From NCBI GenBank assembly GCA_945906935.1, contig CAMDSO010000008.1:1-63855 (forward strand): 63,855 nt of DNA, written 5' to 3'. A model generated the notes under the pieces. That model made no database searches. It saw nothing but the letters and a program-made list of their open reading frames with translations, and had not been told where the DNA came from. Below are positions 2,269 to 47,129 of the stretch, in pieces; the first letter of the stretch is position 1, and each line of letters opens with the position of its first letter. The stretch comes from Bordetella parapertussis (lineage in GTDB: Bacteria > Pseudomonadota > Gammaproteobacteria > Burkholderiales > SG8-41). Made by a program: the position numbers and the translations under genes.

Positions 2269-3942
2269 ATGGCACTCAATCGACGCAGTCATCTCATCAC
2301 CCAGGGCGTGGCCCGTTCACCCAACCGCGCGATGTTGCGCGCAGTCGGTTTCGGCGACGGCGATTTTGTAAAACCAATCGTCGGCGTCGCCAACGGTCAC
2401 TCCAACATGAACCCCTGCAACGCCGGCATCCAACCGCTGGTGGATCGCGCGATGGCCGCACTGCGCAAAGAAGGCGCGATGCCGCAGGTGTTCGGCGTCC
2501 CCACCATCACCGATGGGATCGGCATGGGCACCGAGGCGATGAAATATTCGCTGGTCTCGCGCGAAGTGATTGCCGATGCGATCGAGACCTCGGTTAACGG
2601 TCAGGCGATGGACGGCGTGCTGGTCTGCGGCGGCTGCGACAAAAACATGCCCGCCGGCATGATGGCCATGGCACGCATCAATGTGCCGGGCATCTACGTT
2701 TACGCCGGCACCATCAAGCCGGGCCGCTGGAAGGGGCAGGATCTCACCGTGGTCAGCGTGTTTGAAGCGGTCGGTTCGTTCAGCGCCGGCAAGATGAAGG
2801 AAGAAGATTTCATCGGCATCGAAAAAAATGCCTGCCCGTCGGTCGGTGCCTGCGGCGGCATGTATACCGCCAACACCATGTCGTCGTCGTTTGAAGCGCT
2901 CGGCATGAGCCTCTTGGGCTCATCGCAGATGGCTTCGCCCGACCCGGAAAAAGCCGACTCGGCGGCCGCGTCCGCCACCGTGCTGGTCAATGCGATCAAA
3001 CTCAATCTGCGGCCGCGCGACATCATCACGCGCAAATCGATTGAAAACGCGGTCGCCCTCATTATGGCCACCGGTGGCTCGACCAACGCCGTGCTGCACT
3101 TTCTGGCGATTGCGCATGCCGCCGACGTGAAATGGACCATCGACGACTTCGAACGTATGCGCCGCAAAGTGCCGGTGTTGTGCGATCTCAAACCTTCAGG
3201 CAAATATGTGGCGGTTGATTTCCACCGCGCCGGCGGCGTGCCGCAGGTGCTGAAAATGCTGCTCGCCCACGGCCTGCTGCACGGCGATTGCATGACCATC
3301 ACCGGCCGCACCATGGCGCAGGAGCTGGCGAAAATCCCGGCCGCACCGCGCAAGGATCAGGATGTCATCCGGCCGTGGAACAACCCGCTCTACGCACAAG
3401 GCCATCTGGCGATCCTCAAAGGCAACCTCGCGCCCGAAGGCTGCGTCGCCAAAATCACCGGTCTGAAATCACCAAAGATCACCGGCCCGGCCCGCGTCTT
3501 TGATTCCGAACCAGCGGTCATGAAAGCCATCATGGCGCGCAAGATCAAACCCGGCGACGTCCTGGTGATCCGCTACGAGGGCCCGAAAGGCGGCCCGGGC
3601 ATGCAGGAAATGTTGGCGCCCACTGCGGCGCTAGTCGGTCAAGGGCTTGGCGAGTCGGTCGGCCTGATCACTGATGGTCGTTTCTCCGGCGGCACCTGGG
3701 GCATGGTCGTCGGCCACGTCGCACCGGAAGCCTACGAGGGTGGCACCATCGCGCTGGTGAAAGAAGGCGACTCGATTACCATCGACGCGGACAAGCGTCT
3801 GATCCAGGTAAACGTCAGCGCCCGCGAGCTCGCTACGCGGCGCAAAAAGTGGAAACAACCGAAGCCGCGTTACACCCGCGGACTGCTCGCCAAATATGTG
3901 AAACTCGTTTCGAGCGCCAGCAAGGGCGCGGTCACCGACTAG
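2269..3942 (+). CDS. ilvD: Dihydroxy-acid dehydratase
   Basis: 557 aa; [14 protein letters not shown] and [14 protein letters not shown] motifs. Confidence 0.97.
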
Positions 3943-36123: not shown

Positions 36124-36741
36124 TCAGCGTAAACCGGCTATGTATTCAGAGACCGCCTTGATTTCCGTGTCGGATAGTTTCGCCGCGAGAGTCCGCATCA
36201 TTTTGTTCGGATCATTGGCCCGCTCGCCACTACGGAAAGTCATCAGCTGGGCACTGAGGTAGTCGGCATGCTGACCGGCGACACGCGGATACTGGGCGGG
36301 TATGCCGGCACCGTTGGGCCCGTGGCAGGAAGTGCAGGCTGCCACGCCTTTAGCCATGATACCGCCACGGTAGATCTGTTGCCCGATCTGAACCAGCGCC
36401 GGATCTTTGGCTGAACGCGGCTTGGTTTTTTGTTGCTGGAAATACTCGCCCAACTTTTTCATATCCTCGGGCGCCAGCGTCGATGCTATGCCCAACATCA
36501 CCGGGTTCTTGCGTTCACCGGACTTGAAGTTCGCCAGCTGCTTGGCTGTATACTCGGCGTGTTGCCCTGCCAGCACCGGATTCGCGGGAGTTGCGCTGTT
36601 GCCATCGGCAGCGTGGCAGGCTGAGCAGACTTTGGTCACAATTTGCTCGGCAGTATCAGTCTTAGCAGTGGTCTCCGCTGCACGGGCTGTTGCAAAACAG
36701 CCGACGGTTGCAGCAACCAGCAGCAGGGTTATGAATCGCAT
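36124..36741 (-). CDS. Cytochrome c4-type dihaem protein
   Basis: Signal peptide; CSACH and CTSCH motifs in two repeats; LAGQHAEYTAKQLANFKSGER. Confidence 0.93.
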   Translation of the reverse strand: MRFITLLLVAATVGCFATARAAETTAKTDTAEQIVTKVCSACHAADGNSATPANPVLAGQHAEYTAKQLANFKSGERKNPVMLGIASTLAPEDMKKLGEYFQQQKTKPRSAKDPALVQIGQQIYRGGIMAKGVAACTSCHGPNGAGIPAQYPRVAGQHADYLSAQLMTFRSGERANDPNKMMRTLAAKLSDTEIKAVSEYIAGLR

Positions 36742-36836
36742 GCTTTCTCCTAGCGTTCCTGTCACGCCGCGATTGCGGTATGGCGTAAACGCCGTATTCT
36801 ATCGAAATCCCCTTTCTCCGACTAGGCGGCCCCCTG

Positions 36837-37457
36837 ATGTCCCTATTTCGAAATATCGAATTTTTAACGACCGTTGCAGATATAAAAACCCTGCCTCCCG
36901 CGCGTGGCGCCGAAGTCGCATTTGTCGGCCGTTCTAACGCCGGCAAATCAAGCGCCATCAATGCGCTGGCACAACGCAAACGCATGGCTTTTGTGAGCAA
37001 AACGCCGGGCCGTACTCAACACATTAATTTTTTTAGTGTCGGGCCGGACCAGTATCTGGTCGATCTGCCCGGTTACGGCTATGCGGCGGTCCCGGCGGCG
37101 GAACGCGACCGCTGGAATGATCTCATCGGCGGCTACCTGCAGGCGCGAACCTCGCTGCGCGGCGTCGTACTGATCATGGACGCACGTCATCCACTCGGCG
37201 TTCTCGATTACCAGCTGCTTGACTGGCTGAAACCCACGGACGTGCCGGTTCATGTGCTGCTAAGCAAAGCAGACAAACTGGGGCACCAGGAATCGGTCGC
37301 AACACTGAAATTTGTCCATGCCGGATTGAAAGATTTGGGCGATAACTACAGCGCCCAGCTCTTTTCGAGTCCGCGCAGAATAGGGATACAAGAGGCAAAT
37401 AAATTGATCGGCAGCTGGCTTGACCCGCGCAACCGAAATAAAAAGCCCCCGGTTTAA
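36837..37457 (+). CDS. engB: Ribosome biogenesis GTPase YihA/YsxC/EngB
   Basis: EVAFVGRSNAGKSSAINAL; TPGRTQHINFF; VDLPGYGYA; LLSKADKL. Confidence 0.96.
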   Translation: MSLFRNIEFLTTVADIKTLPPARGAEVAFVGRSNAGKSSAINALAQRKRMAFVSKTPGRTQHINFFSVGPDQYLVDLPGYGYAAVPAAERDRWNDLIGGYLQARTSLRGVVLIMDARHPLGVLDYQLLDWLKPTDVPVHVLLSKADKLGHQESVATLKFVHAGLKDLGDNYSAQLFSSPRRIGIQEANKLIGSWLDPRNRNKKPPV

Positions 37458-37540
37458 TGGAATTAAAACCGGGGGCAAAGCCTTAATAAGGGTATCAAGG
37501 CACCCGCTCAGGGAGGAGAAACGGGGGACGATCAATGATC
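37436..37540 (-). ncRNA. Candidate minus-strand sRNA with CUCCUCCC loop and intrinsic terminator; possible member of an anti-SD-type betaproteobacterial sRNA family
   Basis: Minus strand: GATCATTGATCGTCCCCCGTTTCTCCTCCCTGAGCGGGTGCC...CCTTATTAAGGCTTTGCCCCCGGTTT-taattccatt-AAACCGGGGGC-TTTTTATTTC. CUCCUCCC lies in the CCCG/CGGG loop; 11-bp GC-rich terminator stem plus U-tract; boundaries approximate. Confidence 0.6.
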
Positions 37541-37614
37541 ATCCATTAAGTCTGACCAAGTAAAATTTCTAAAGTTCCAAGTGCAAGCGATAAAATAGTT
37601 TTCCACCTTCATAG

Positions 37615-39236
<1,622 letters not shown>

Positions 39237-44886: not shown

Positions 44887-47034
44887 ATGAGTACCCGTAA
44901 AAAACTTTTAGCCATTTCGACTCGAATTGCGGTGGCATTGGCAATGTGCCTGCCAGCCACAGGCTCTTGGAGCCAAAACACGTCGCAGGCATTGCCGAAC
45001 AGCATAGAGGCGATAGATGTTGCGGGCCAGCAAGGCGGCAACATTGTGGTTCGCATAACGCTCAAAACCGCACCTGTCAATCCTCCGGTTGGTTTTACCG
45101 TGAATGACCCACCACGTATCGCCTTTGACTTCGCAGGCACCGCTAACGGGCTTGGCAAAAATATGCGTGAGGTCGGTGAAGGTGATTTGCGCCTGATGAA
45201 CATCGTGCAAGCTGGCGATCGCACTCGCGTGGTGATGAATCTGACCAAGCCACTGGGCTACGACACCCGTATCGACGGAAAAACCGTGGTCATCACGTTG
45301 CAAGGAACAAGGCCTGCAGGCGCGACCGCAAATACTACGGCTCCGGTGACGTCTCATTTCGCGGAGACGAAACCAAATGATGATCGCCATGCGTTACGGG
45401 ATATCAGTTTTCGCCGCGGCCCCAACGGCGAAGGCCGGATTATTGTTGATCTTTCGGATAATGCGGTGGGTATTGACCTGCGCCAGCAGGGCAAAAATCT
45501 GATCATCGAGTTCGCTAACACGTCGCTGCCGAAAAATCTTGAGCGCCGCCTTGACGTTTTGGACTTTGCAACCCCCGTACAAACCATCGATGCGTTTATG
45601 CAAGCAGGCAATTCCCGTATCGCCATAGAACCGAAAGGGTTGTGGGAACACTCAGCCTATCAAACCGACAACCGCTTTATCGTGGAAATCAAACCAATTG
45701 TTGAAGACCCGACCAAACTGATACAGGGCTCAAAAGTCGGCTATACAGGCGAGAAGCTGTCGCTCAATTTTCAGAATGTTGAAGTGCGTGCCGTGTTACA
45801 GGTCATCGCCGACTTTACGGGGTTTAATTTCATTACTAGCGATACCGTGGGCGGCAACCTGACCCTGCGCCTAAAAGATGTCCCGTGGGACCAAGCCTTG
45901 GACATCATCTTGCAGACCAAGGGACTCGACATGCGCAAGAATGGCAACGTGGTGTGGATTGCACCCCGTGACGAGCTTGCAACCAAAGAAAAGCTTGCGC
46001 TCGAATCACAAGCCCAGATCGCCGATCTGGAGCCGGTCAGGACAGAATCCTTTCAGCTCAATTACCAAAAAGCCGATGCGCTGCAGAAACTGGTTGGGGA
46101 CAAGGCGCAACCCATCCTTTCAAAACGCGGTAGCGCAGTGGTCGATGCAAGAACCAATACGCTGTTCGTGCAGGACACCCCAAGTCGACTCGAACAAGTC
46201 AGGGCACTCATCAAGAAGATTGATATCCCGGTACGTCAGGTGTTAATTGAGGCGCGCATCGTTGAGGCTTCGGACACTTTCAGTCGCAACCTTGGTGCTC
46301 GTTTGGGCTTAAGCGACCGGGCTGGCGGACAAGGCTTGCTCAATAGCTCCAATCGCGTGACCTATGGCGGCTCTCTCGATACAACCGCGTACACCACAAC
46401 ACAGATCGCGTCACCCGTTCCTACGCTCCCCCAGTCGCTCGGCGTAAATCTGCCGACGACCGGTCTGAACGGCTCTACGCCCGGTGTATTTTCAATGATC
46501 CTGTTTAACGAAGGTTTGACGCGCTTTATCAACATGGAGGTTTCGGCCCTCCAGGCGGACGGCAAAGGAAAGATCATCTCCAGTCCGAGGGTCATTACTG
46601 CCGATCAAGTCGAAGCGACCATCGAACAGGGCACGCAAATCCCTTATCAACAAGCCACCTCCAGTGGTGCGACCAGCGTAGCGTTCAAATCTGCGTCGCT
46701 CAGTCTGAAAGTAAAACCACAAATCACCCCCGACGACAATGTCATTATGGATTTGAATATTCATAAAGATAGCGTCGGCACCGTAACATCGTCAGGCCCG
46801 TCGATTGATACCAAACAGATCACAACGTCGGTACTGGTGCAGAACGGCGGAACCGTTGTGATTGGCGGTATTTATTCGCAAACTGAAAGCAATACGACTA
46901 CAAAAATCCCGCTTTTGGGCGATGCGCCGTTTATCGGCTTCCTCTTCAGAAACAATTCAAAAACGGACAACAAAAGCGAACTGTTGATTTTTATCAGCCC
47001 GAAAATTGTAAAAACCAATTTGGGCCTGCGTTAA
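44887..47034 (+). CDS. pilQ: Type IV pilus secretin PilQ
   Basis: AMIN domains, STN, secretin signature PLLGDAPFIGFLFRNNSKTDNKSELLIFISPKIV. Confidence 0.97.
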   Translation: MSTRKKLLAISTRIAVALAMCLPATGSWSQNTSQALPNSIEAIDVAGQQGGNIVVRITLKTAPVNPPVGFTVNDPPRIAFDFAGTANGLGKNMREVGEGDLRLMNIVQAGDRTRVVMNLTKPLGYDTRIDGKTVVITLQGTRPAGATANTTAPVTSHFAETKPNDDRHALRDISFRRGPNGEGRIIVDLSDNAVGIDLRQQGKNLIIEFANTSLPKNLERRLDVLDFATPVQTIDAFMQAGNSRIAIEPKGLWEHSAYQTDNRFIVEIKPIVEDPTKLIQGSKVGYTGEKLSLNFQNVEVRAVLQVIADFTGFNFITSDTVGGNLTLRLKDVPWDQALDIILQTKGLDMRKNGNVVWIAPRDELATKEKLALESQAQIADLEPVRTESFQLNYQKADALQKLVGDKAQPILSKRGSAVVDARTNTLFVQDTPSRLEQVRALIKKIDIPVRQVLIEARIVEASDTFSRNLGARLGLSDRAGGQGLLNSSNRVTYGGSLDTTAYTTTQIASPVPTLPQSLGVNLPTTGLNGSTPGVFSMILFNEGLTRFINMEVSALQADGKGKIISSPRVITADQVEATIEQGTQIPYQQATSSGATSVAFKSASLSLKVKPQITPDDNVIMDLNIHKDSVGTVTSSGPSIDTKQITTSVLVQNGGTVVIGGIYSQTESNTTTKIPLLGDAPFIGFLFRNNSKTDNKSELLIFISPKIVKTNLGLR

Positions 47035-47050
47035 ATCCTCCTCTTTATTT

Positions 47051-47086
47051 ACAAAAAACCCGGCCCCATGGCCGGGTTTTTTGTCT
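47051..47086 (+). terminator. Intrinsic terminator after pilQ (15-bp stem, both orientations U/A flanked)
   Basis: ACAAAAAACCCGGCC-ccat-GGCCGGGTTTTTTGT. Confidence 0.93.
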
Positions 47087-47129
47087 GCCTCGATTAAGTG
47101 CGGGAGACAATTCGGGATAAAATGTCGCA

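Follow-up and report, generated by a model that had tools for sequence, protein, structure and literature searches.

The window, by which we mean the whole 63,855-nucleotide stretch of DNA analysed here, carries engB and hemB on its plus strand, and the spacer between the two genes reads GGAUGAUCAUUGAUCGUCCCCCGUUUCUCCUCCCUGAGCGGGUGCCUUGAUACCCUUAUUAAGGCUUUGCCCCCGGUUUUAAUUCCAUUAAACCGGGGGCUUUUUAU on the minus strand (sequence of 36600-38100). Comparison with Rfam (cmscan) identified one sRNA match above cut-off in the window, to the family RF02837 (anti-hemB), at 37438-37528 on the minus strand. It scores 66.6 bits against a gathering cut-off of 49.5 bits and covers positions 1-81 of the 81-position model. 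The feature is a real, already catalogued sRNA, a full-length member of RF02837. Above cut-off, the family has a single copy in the source genome and is represented in 133 of the 200 genomes sampled from the order. The first-pass annotation had proposed a minus-strand sRNA gene with its own terminator between engB and hemB, and the family match, the structure and the sequence support such a gene. It had likened the RNA to the "Betaproteobacteria toxic small RNA" (RF02278); this membership was rejected, as RF02278 gave no match in the window region even at E ≤ 10, and RF02837 is the right family. The interval then given, 37436-37540, does contain the element, but the element extends beyond it to include a 5′ hairpin at 37526-37544 and a promoter at 37551-37578 (Table 1).

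Table 1. Features of the engB-hemB region, in window coordinates
Feature	Position	Strand	Basis
engB (YsxC/YihA-type GTPase)	36837-37457	+	ORF; convergent with the sRNA
hemB (porphobilinogen synthase)	37627-38634	+	ORF; divergent from the sRNA
Predicted sRNA transcript, ~107 nt, four stem-loops (RF02837 plus 5′ hairpin)	37438-37544	-	RF02837 match, model R2, fold
-35 element GGAACTT, sigma-E type	37572-37578	-	Sequence; position conserved across homologues
-10 element TCAGA, 16-nt spacer to -35	37551-37555	-	Sequence; spacer and base conservation in homologues
5′ hairpin GGAUGAUC-AUU-GAUCGUCC	37526-37544	-	Helix 1 of alignment A1
Stem-loop 1, presenting the anti-Shine-Dalgarno loop	37503-37525	-	Fold; helix 2 of A1 and A3
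Loop motif CUCCUCCC, complementary to ribosome-binding sites	37511-37518	-	Mostly unpaired in the ensemble; conservation
Stem-loop 2	37480-37501	-	Helix 3 of A1
Intrinsic terminator, stem 37445-37476 plus U-tract	37437-37476	- only	Sequence; helix 4 of A1

Only on the minus strand does UUUUUAUU follow the terminator stem, GCCCCCGGUUU/AAACCGGGGGC. On the plus strand no T-run was found 3′ of the stem, so that the terminator does not serve engB, in line with the earlier remark that a one-way terminator at this place is not explained by the flanking genes. As had also been pointed out, it overlaps the engB stop codon (37455-37457), which lies inside the stem, and the 3′ end of the sRNA overlaps the last ~20 nt of engB on the opposite strand. 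The sRNA is convergent with engB and lies 99 bp from the divergent hemB; the polA gene of the source genome is found on a separate contig.

The family has been studied in Burkholderia. Its B. cenocepacia member, ncS04, is an expressed RNA of 105 nt, characterized by RACE/dRNA-seq (including its 3′ end by RACE) and by Northern blot, for which Hfq binding was reported (PMC5688073). It was expressed in biofilm, and its level measured by qPCR did not change significantly in seven conditions, no dedicated envelope stress being among them (PMC5688073). RF02837, also named Burkholderia RNA 7, had been listed earlier in B. pseudomallei (PMC3521395), and neither study assigns it a function. The RNA described here agrees with ncS04 in its full-length family match, strand, gene order (hemB divergent, engB convergent), loop and terminator, while its 5′ hairpin is missing from the Rfam model. 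Bordetella S17 (PMC11722255) was considered as a prior description of the anti-hemB RNA but proved to be a different RNA, located near coq7 and similar to RF02278. Another contig of the source genome carries an RF02278-like element, the only one in this genome (G000:C69:13095-13159, or L001:1501-1565; 37.3 bits for a cut-off of 50), which is probably a diverged member of that family.

The predicted transcript folds with a minimum free energy of -50.2 kcal/mol. Compared with shuffled sequence, the element is far more stable (z = -6.2), and none of 200 shuffles attained its stability. The ensemble leaves the loop UCCUCCCU unpaired and CUCCUCCC mostly unpaired. The placement of this anti-Shine-Dalgarno motif in a hairpin loop, from which it could pair with ribosome-binding sites, had been proposed in the first-pass annotation and is reproduced by our folding model. 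The hairpin layout it gave was modified at one point, as CCUUAUUAAGG belongs to the 9-bp middle hairpin GCCUUGAUA/UAUUAAGGC (37480-37501), and is otherwise as described. Alignment A1, of 43 Burkholderiales loci extended upstream, contains four helices; with the structure supplied, 93.4% of the cells pair and 21 of 28 pairs show a change on both sides. This covariation level was reached by 0/500 shuffles, and sliding the partners destroyed the signal. Although the 5′ hairpin (helix 1) lies outside the Rfam model, it covaries, with six of its seven pairs changed on both sides and 89.6% of its cells paired; in stem-loop 2 (helix 3), seven of eight pairs changed on both sides. The 43 Burkholderiales loci show no variation in the core of the loop 1 motif, nor do 30 loci of other orders in CUCCC. 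The CCC/GGG pairing that RNAalifold placed inside loop 1 was not retained: the stem CCCGCU/AGCGGG fits the sequences instead and covaries modestly.

Directly upstream of the 5′ hairpin, the minus strand carries GGAACTT-N16-TCAGA. The pattern GAACYH-N14-18-TC, the known form of sigma-E/AlgU promoters, has two matches in the window against 5.1 expected. It is thus no rarer there than chance, and the promoter argument rests on conservation. The upstream sequence was long enough to be examined in 148 sRNA copies; 119 of them display the pattern, compared with 326 of 18,204 length-matched control windows taken from these loci (1.8%). The spacer measures 16 or 17 nt in 114 of these 119 copies, position 5 of the -10 element is an A in 99 of them, though this base was not selected, and the distance between motif and RNA hardly varies across diverse genomes. 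With the predicted start at 37544, the transcript would be ~107 nt long, near the 105 nt published for ncS04. RpoE is encoded in the source genome (TIGR02939, 321.8 bits, cut-off 236), and a looser GAACTA-N17-TC is found upstream of rpoE. A simple promoter and terminator scan detected no sigma-70-like promoter in 37380-37700; it missed both the promoter and the terminator of the sRNA because it is limited to promoters of the sigma-70 type and to terminators with loops of 3-8 bases. Judged by its sequence, the promoter appears to be of the sigma-E (RpoE/AlgU) type, and we infer that the RNA would be sigma-E dependent.

The name anti-hemB implies an RNA restricted to Burkholderia and acting on hemB, but the family occurs far more widely and is not always found next to hemB. 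Across 91 Burkholderiales loci, hemB is divergent in 71, an engB homologue is convergent with the sRNA in 65, and the full order hemB (divergent)-sRNA-engB (convergent) is found in 62. In 13 of the 91, engB is followed by the sRNA in the same orientation; the sRNA promoter is retained in several of them. Inverted copies situated 64-157 nt downstream of engB were observed in L022, L032, L075, L077, L097, L101, L112, L117, L125 and L128. For other orders, RF02837 was searched in a class sample of 274 genomes, giving matches above cut-off in 14 and at E ≤ 0.001 in 124, both counts including the two Burkholderiales genomes of the sample. Control genomes also give matches below the cut-off, so weak RF02837 matches alone were not trusted, and our reading of the distribution relies jointly on synteny, promoter and structure. 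Of 45 loci from other orders, 39 include engB or polA in the retrieved sequence, 28 have engB convergent with the sRNA, and 18 show the full order polA-sRNA-engB. Some genomes lacking an RF02837 match have a promoter of sigma-E type, hairpins and a U-run beside engB.

In several loci of other gammaproteobacterial orders, RF02837-like sRNAs are repeated in tandem, with two to four or more copies (L144-L149 and L132); L144, L145, L146, L147 and L132 adjoin polA and/or engB, and neither gene was found near L148 and L149. Within the Burkholderiales, L072 and L076 (genomes G033 and G078) are tandem RF02837 pairs away from engB and hemB, in addition to a copy beside hemB. In one gammaproteobacterial locus, a c-di-GMP-I riboswitch (L051:2037-2121, 77.9 bits) lies some 450 bp away from the sRNA.

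The presence of polA beside the RF02837-like copies of other orders recalls ErsA (RF01719), a sigma-22 dependent sRNA of the polA-engB spacer that represses algC by pairing with its ribosome-binding site, with Hfq (PMC8575079, PMC6321483). In P. aeruginosa PA7 (L200), RF01719 (Pseudomon-1/ErsA) matches at 3150-3265 on the minus strand, behind GAACTT-N17-TCAGA. RF01719 itself gave no match in 37380-37640 of the window at E ≤ 10, and the RNA was therefore not filed as ErsA. A model built from Burkholderiales copies only (R1) matched ErsA in Pseudomonas loci weakly. A second model (R2), built from the 83 copies of alignment A3 with Pseudomonas left out, was tested on 30 Pseudomonas loci and matched at the position of ErsA in every one, with scores of 22.1-37.8 bits against at most 17.7 bits in loci without engB; five of the 30 were checked against RF01719 itself. 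The PA7 match (26.5 bits, E = 6.7e-7 within its own 5.6 kb) spans the 5′ hairpin, the middle hairpin and the terminator, to the exclusion of stem-loop 1. The element is absent from the Stutzerimonas locus L153, and R2 gave no match there. Stutzerimonas had been considered as a source of ErsA, but the engB regions of G360 and of two named strains contain no such element, and other Pseudomonas loci were used for this reason. In the window, R2 matches 37433-37553 with 90.4 bits, the window being part of its training set. A further R2 match at 46994-47091 on the plus strand (17.6 bits) is at noise level and is probably a terminator-like hairpin.

The two RNAs have in common their convergence with engB, the promoter type, the 5′ and middle hairpins and a C-rich terminator loop. 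They differ in that ErsA adjoins polA rather than hemB and has a CU-rich stretch in place of the anti-Shine-Dalgarno hairpin, stem-loop 1. Rfam keeps RF01719 and RF02837 separate, without a common clan, and draws no link between them. Since likeness of the terminators adds to the R2 score, the match is not proof, and the missing stem-loop 1 together with the negative RF01719 result makes homology with ErsA probable, not proven. It is probable that the anti-hemB RNA and ErsA derive from one ancestral sRNA gene kept beside engB, and that the anti-Shine-Dalgarno hairpin was lost or gained since.

Spot 42 (spf, RF00021) of E. coli occupies the same position, between polA and engB (yihA) and convergent with the latter, but no sigma-E-type promoter was found there. 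RF00021 had no match in the window or in the 274 genomes of the class sample, source genome included, and neither RF02837 nor R2 matched E. coli spf. Spot 42 was accordingly rejected as a sequence relative, and only the locus is shared. We lean, with some reservation, towards the wider view that RF02837 and RF01719, together with numerous unannotated RNAs, belong to a single ancient sigma-E-dependent family residing beside engB across the Gammaproteobacteria, Betaproteobacteria included. This family would have been duplicated in tandem in some lineages, Spot 42 being an enterobacterial replacement or an extreme derivative.

We consider, with a probability of roughly three in four, that the RNA is a trans-acting, Hfq-class sRNA of the RF02837 family, related to ErsA, with its own sigma-E type promoter and terminator and a loop that pairs with ribosome-binding sites. 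The direct basis of this reading comprises family membership, structure, covariation, promoter conservation, synteny, the presence of rpoE and a weak but specific ErsA match; pairing with ribosome-binding sites is suggested by the analogy with ErsA and by the loop sequence. The RNA is presumably transcribed in the source organism, where envelope stress would raise its level through RpoE. Hfq would bind the U-tail and assist pairing of the exposed loop UCUCCUCCCUG of stem-loop 1 with the G-rich ribosome-binding sites of a set of mRNAs. Pairing of CUCCUCCCUG with these sites would block ribosome entry, and the presumed targets would be repressed at translation.

A search for CAGGGAGG-N3-11-ATG in five genomes of the family returned 44 sites versus 10 for the reversed pattern, an excess that a general Shine-Dalgarno preference would yield likewise. 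Several genes for TctC/Bug binding proteins are among these sites. Each of the five genomes (G000, G046, G090, G131 and G169) holds at least 133 genes for TctC/Bug substrate-binding proteins, a very large expansion, and for this reason no TctC enrichment can be claimed. The best ribosome-binding-site matches in the five genomes single out no pathway. Concerning the neighbouring genes, the hemB start region pairs with the loop at only -4.6 kcal/mol and has no purine-rich site, and the engB start region (-11.6 kcal/mol) pairs mainly with the stem of stem-loop 1. Both results argue against the function implied by the name.

In keeping with its Rfam name, the RNA could be read as a cis-antisense regulator of hemB or engB: the sRNA lies upstream of hemB on the opposite strand, its 3′ end runs into engB, and any transcript continuing from engB into hemB would be antisense to it. 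In addition, hemB is a predicted target of Bc7, an Hfq-bound sRNA of B. cenocepacia (PMC6321483). We nonetheless regard this explanation as quite unlikely, because beyond the Burkholderiales the sRNA stands by polA without hemB, pairing of the loop with the hemB start is almost absent, and it is the loop and the structure that are conserved. The first-pass annotation had suggested that the 3′ end is antisense to engB mRNA; the overlap makes this possible in principle, but the 13 loci with sRNA and engB on one strand, several keeping the promoter, make it unlikely as a function. These loci also speak against the idea that the hairpins are nothing but the 3′ end of engB mRNA, which the overlap of the terminator with the stop codon might suggest. 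As the U-tract is confined to the minus strand and the promoter, the anti-Shine-Dalgarno loop and the 5′ hairpin are all conserved on that strand, this last idea, which the first-pass annotation had named as a possible refutation of its proposal, has a negligible chance of being correct.

Regarding expression, the RNA might be transcribed from a housekeeping promoter without any link to sigma-E, the upstream motif serving something else. The expression of ncS04 in biofilm, at a level varying little between conditions, is compatible with this, as is the frequency of the motif by itself in the window. Such a promoter is unlikely, given that no sigma-70-like candidate was detected, that the spacer of the motif is fixed and its distance to the RNA nearly so in diverse genomes, and that the same arrangement precedes the sigma-22 dependent ErsA. 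An identity with the growth-inhibiting double-hairpin RNAs of RF02278 (Burkholderia ncS03, ncS05, ncS27 and ncS62, to which Bordetella S17 is related) was suggested by the CU-rich loop complementary to ribosome-binding sites and the terminator hairpin, both common to the two families, and by the occurrence of these RNAs in the same bacteria (PMC5688073). It is very improbable: besides the negative search, the present RNA has four hairpins instead of two and a different locus, and the sole RF02278-like element of the genome lies elsewhere.

The trans-acting, ErsA-related sRNA that we favour had been listed since 2012, as anti-hemB, among catalogued orphans without a function. The novel elements appear to be its promoter, its 5′ hairpin, its broad occurrence and the connection with ErsA: a search of the open-access literature found no links between anti-hemB, ErsA, sigma-E and Burkholderia. 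Placement beside ErsA provides a testable inducer (envelope stress via RpoE), a mechanism (pairing with ribosome-binding sites, with Hfq) and a more fitting name, and it points to a clan that would unite the two Rfam families. If this is true, the Burkholderiales hold an unrecognised sigma-E sRNA whose role would be comparable to those of MicA, RybB and ErsA. The chromosomal site beside engB would then have hosted a regulatory sRNA over very long times, and the origin of Spot 42 would be opened to comparative work.
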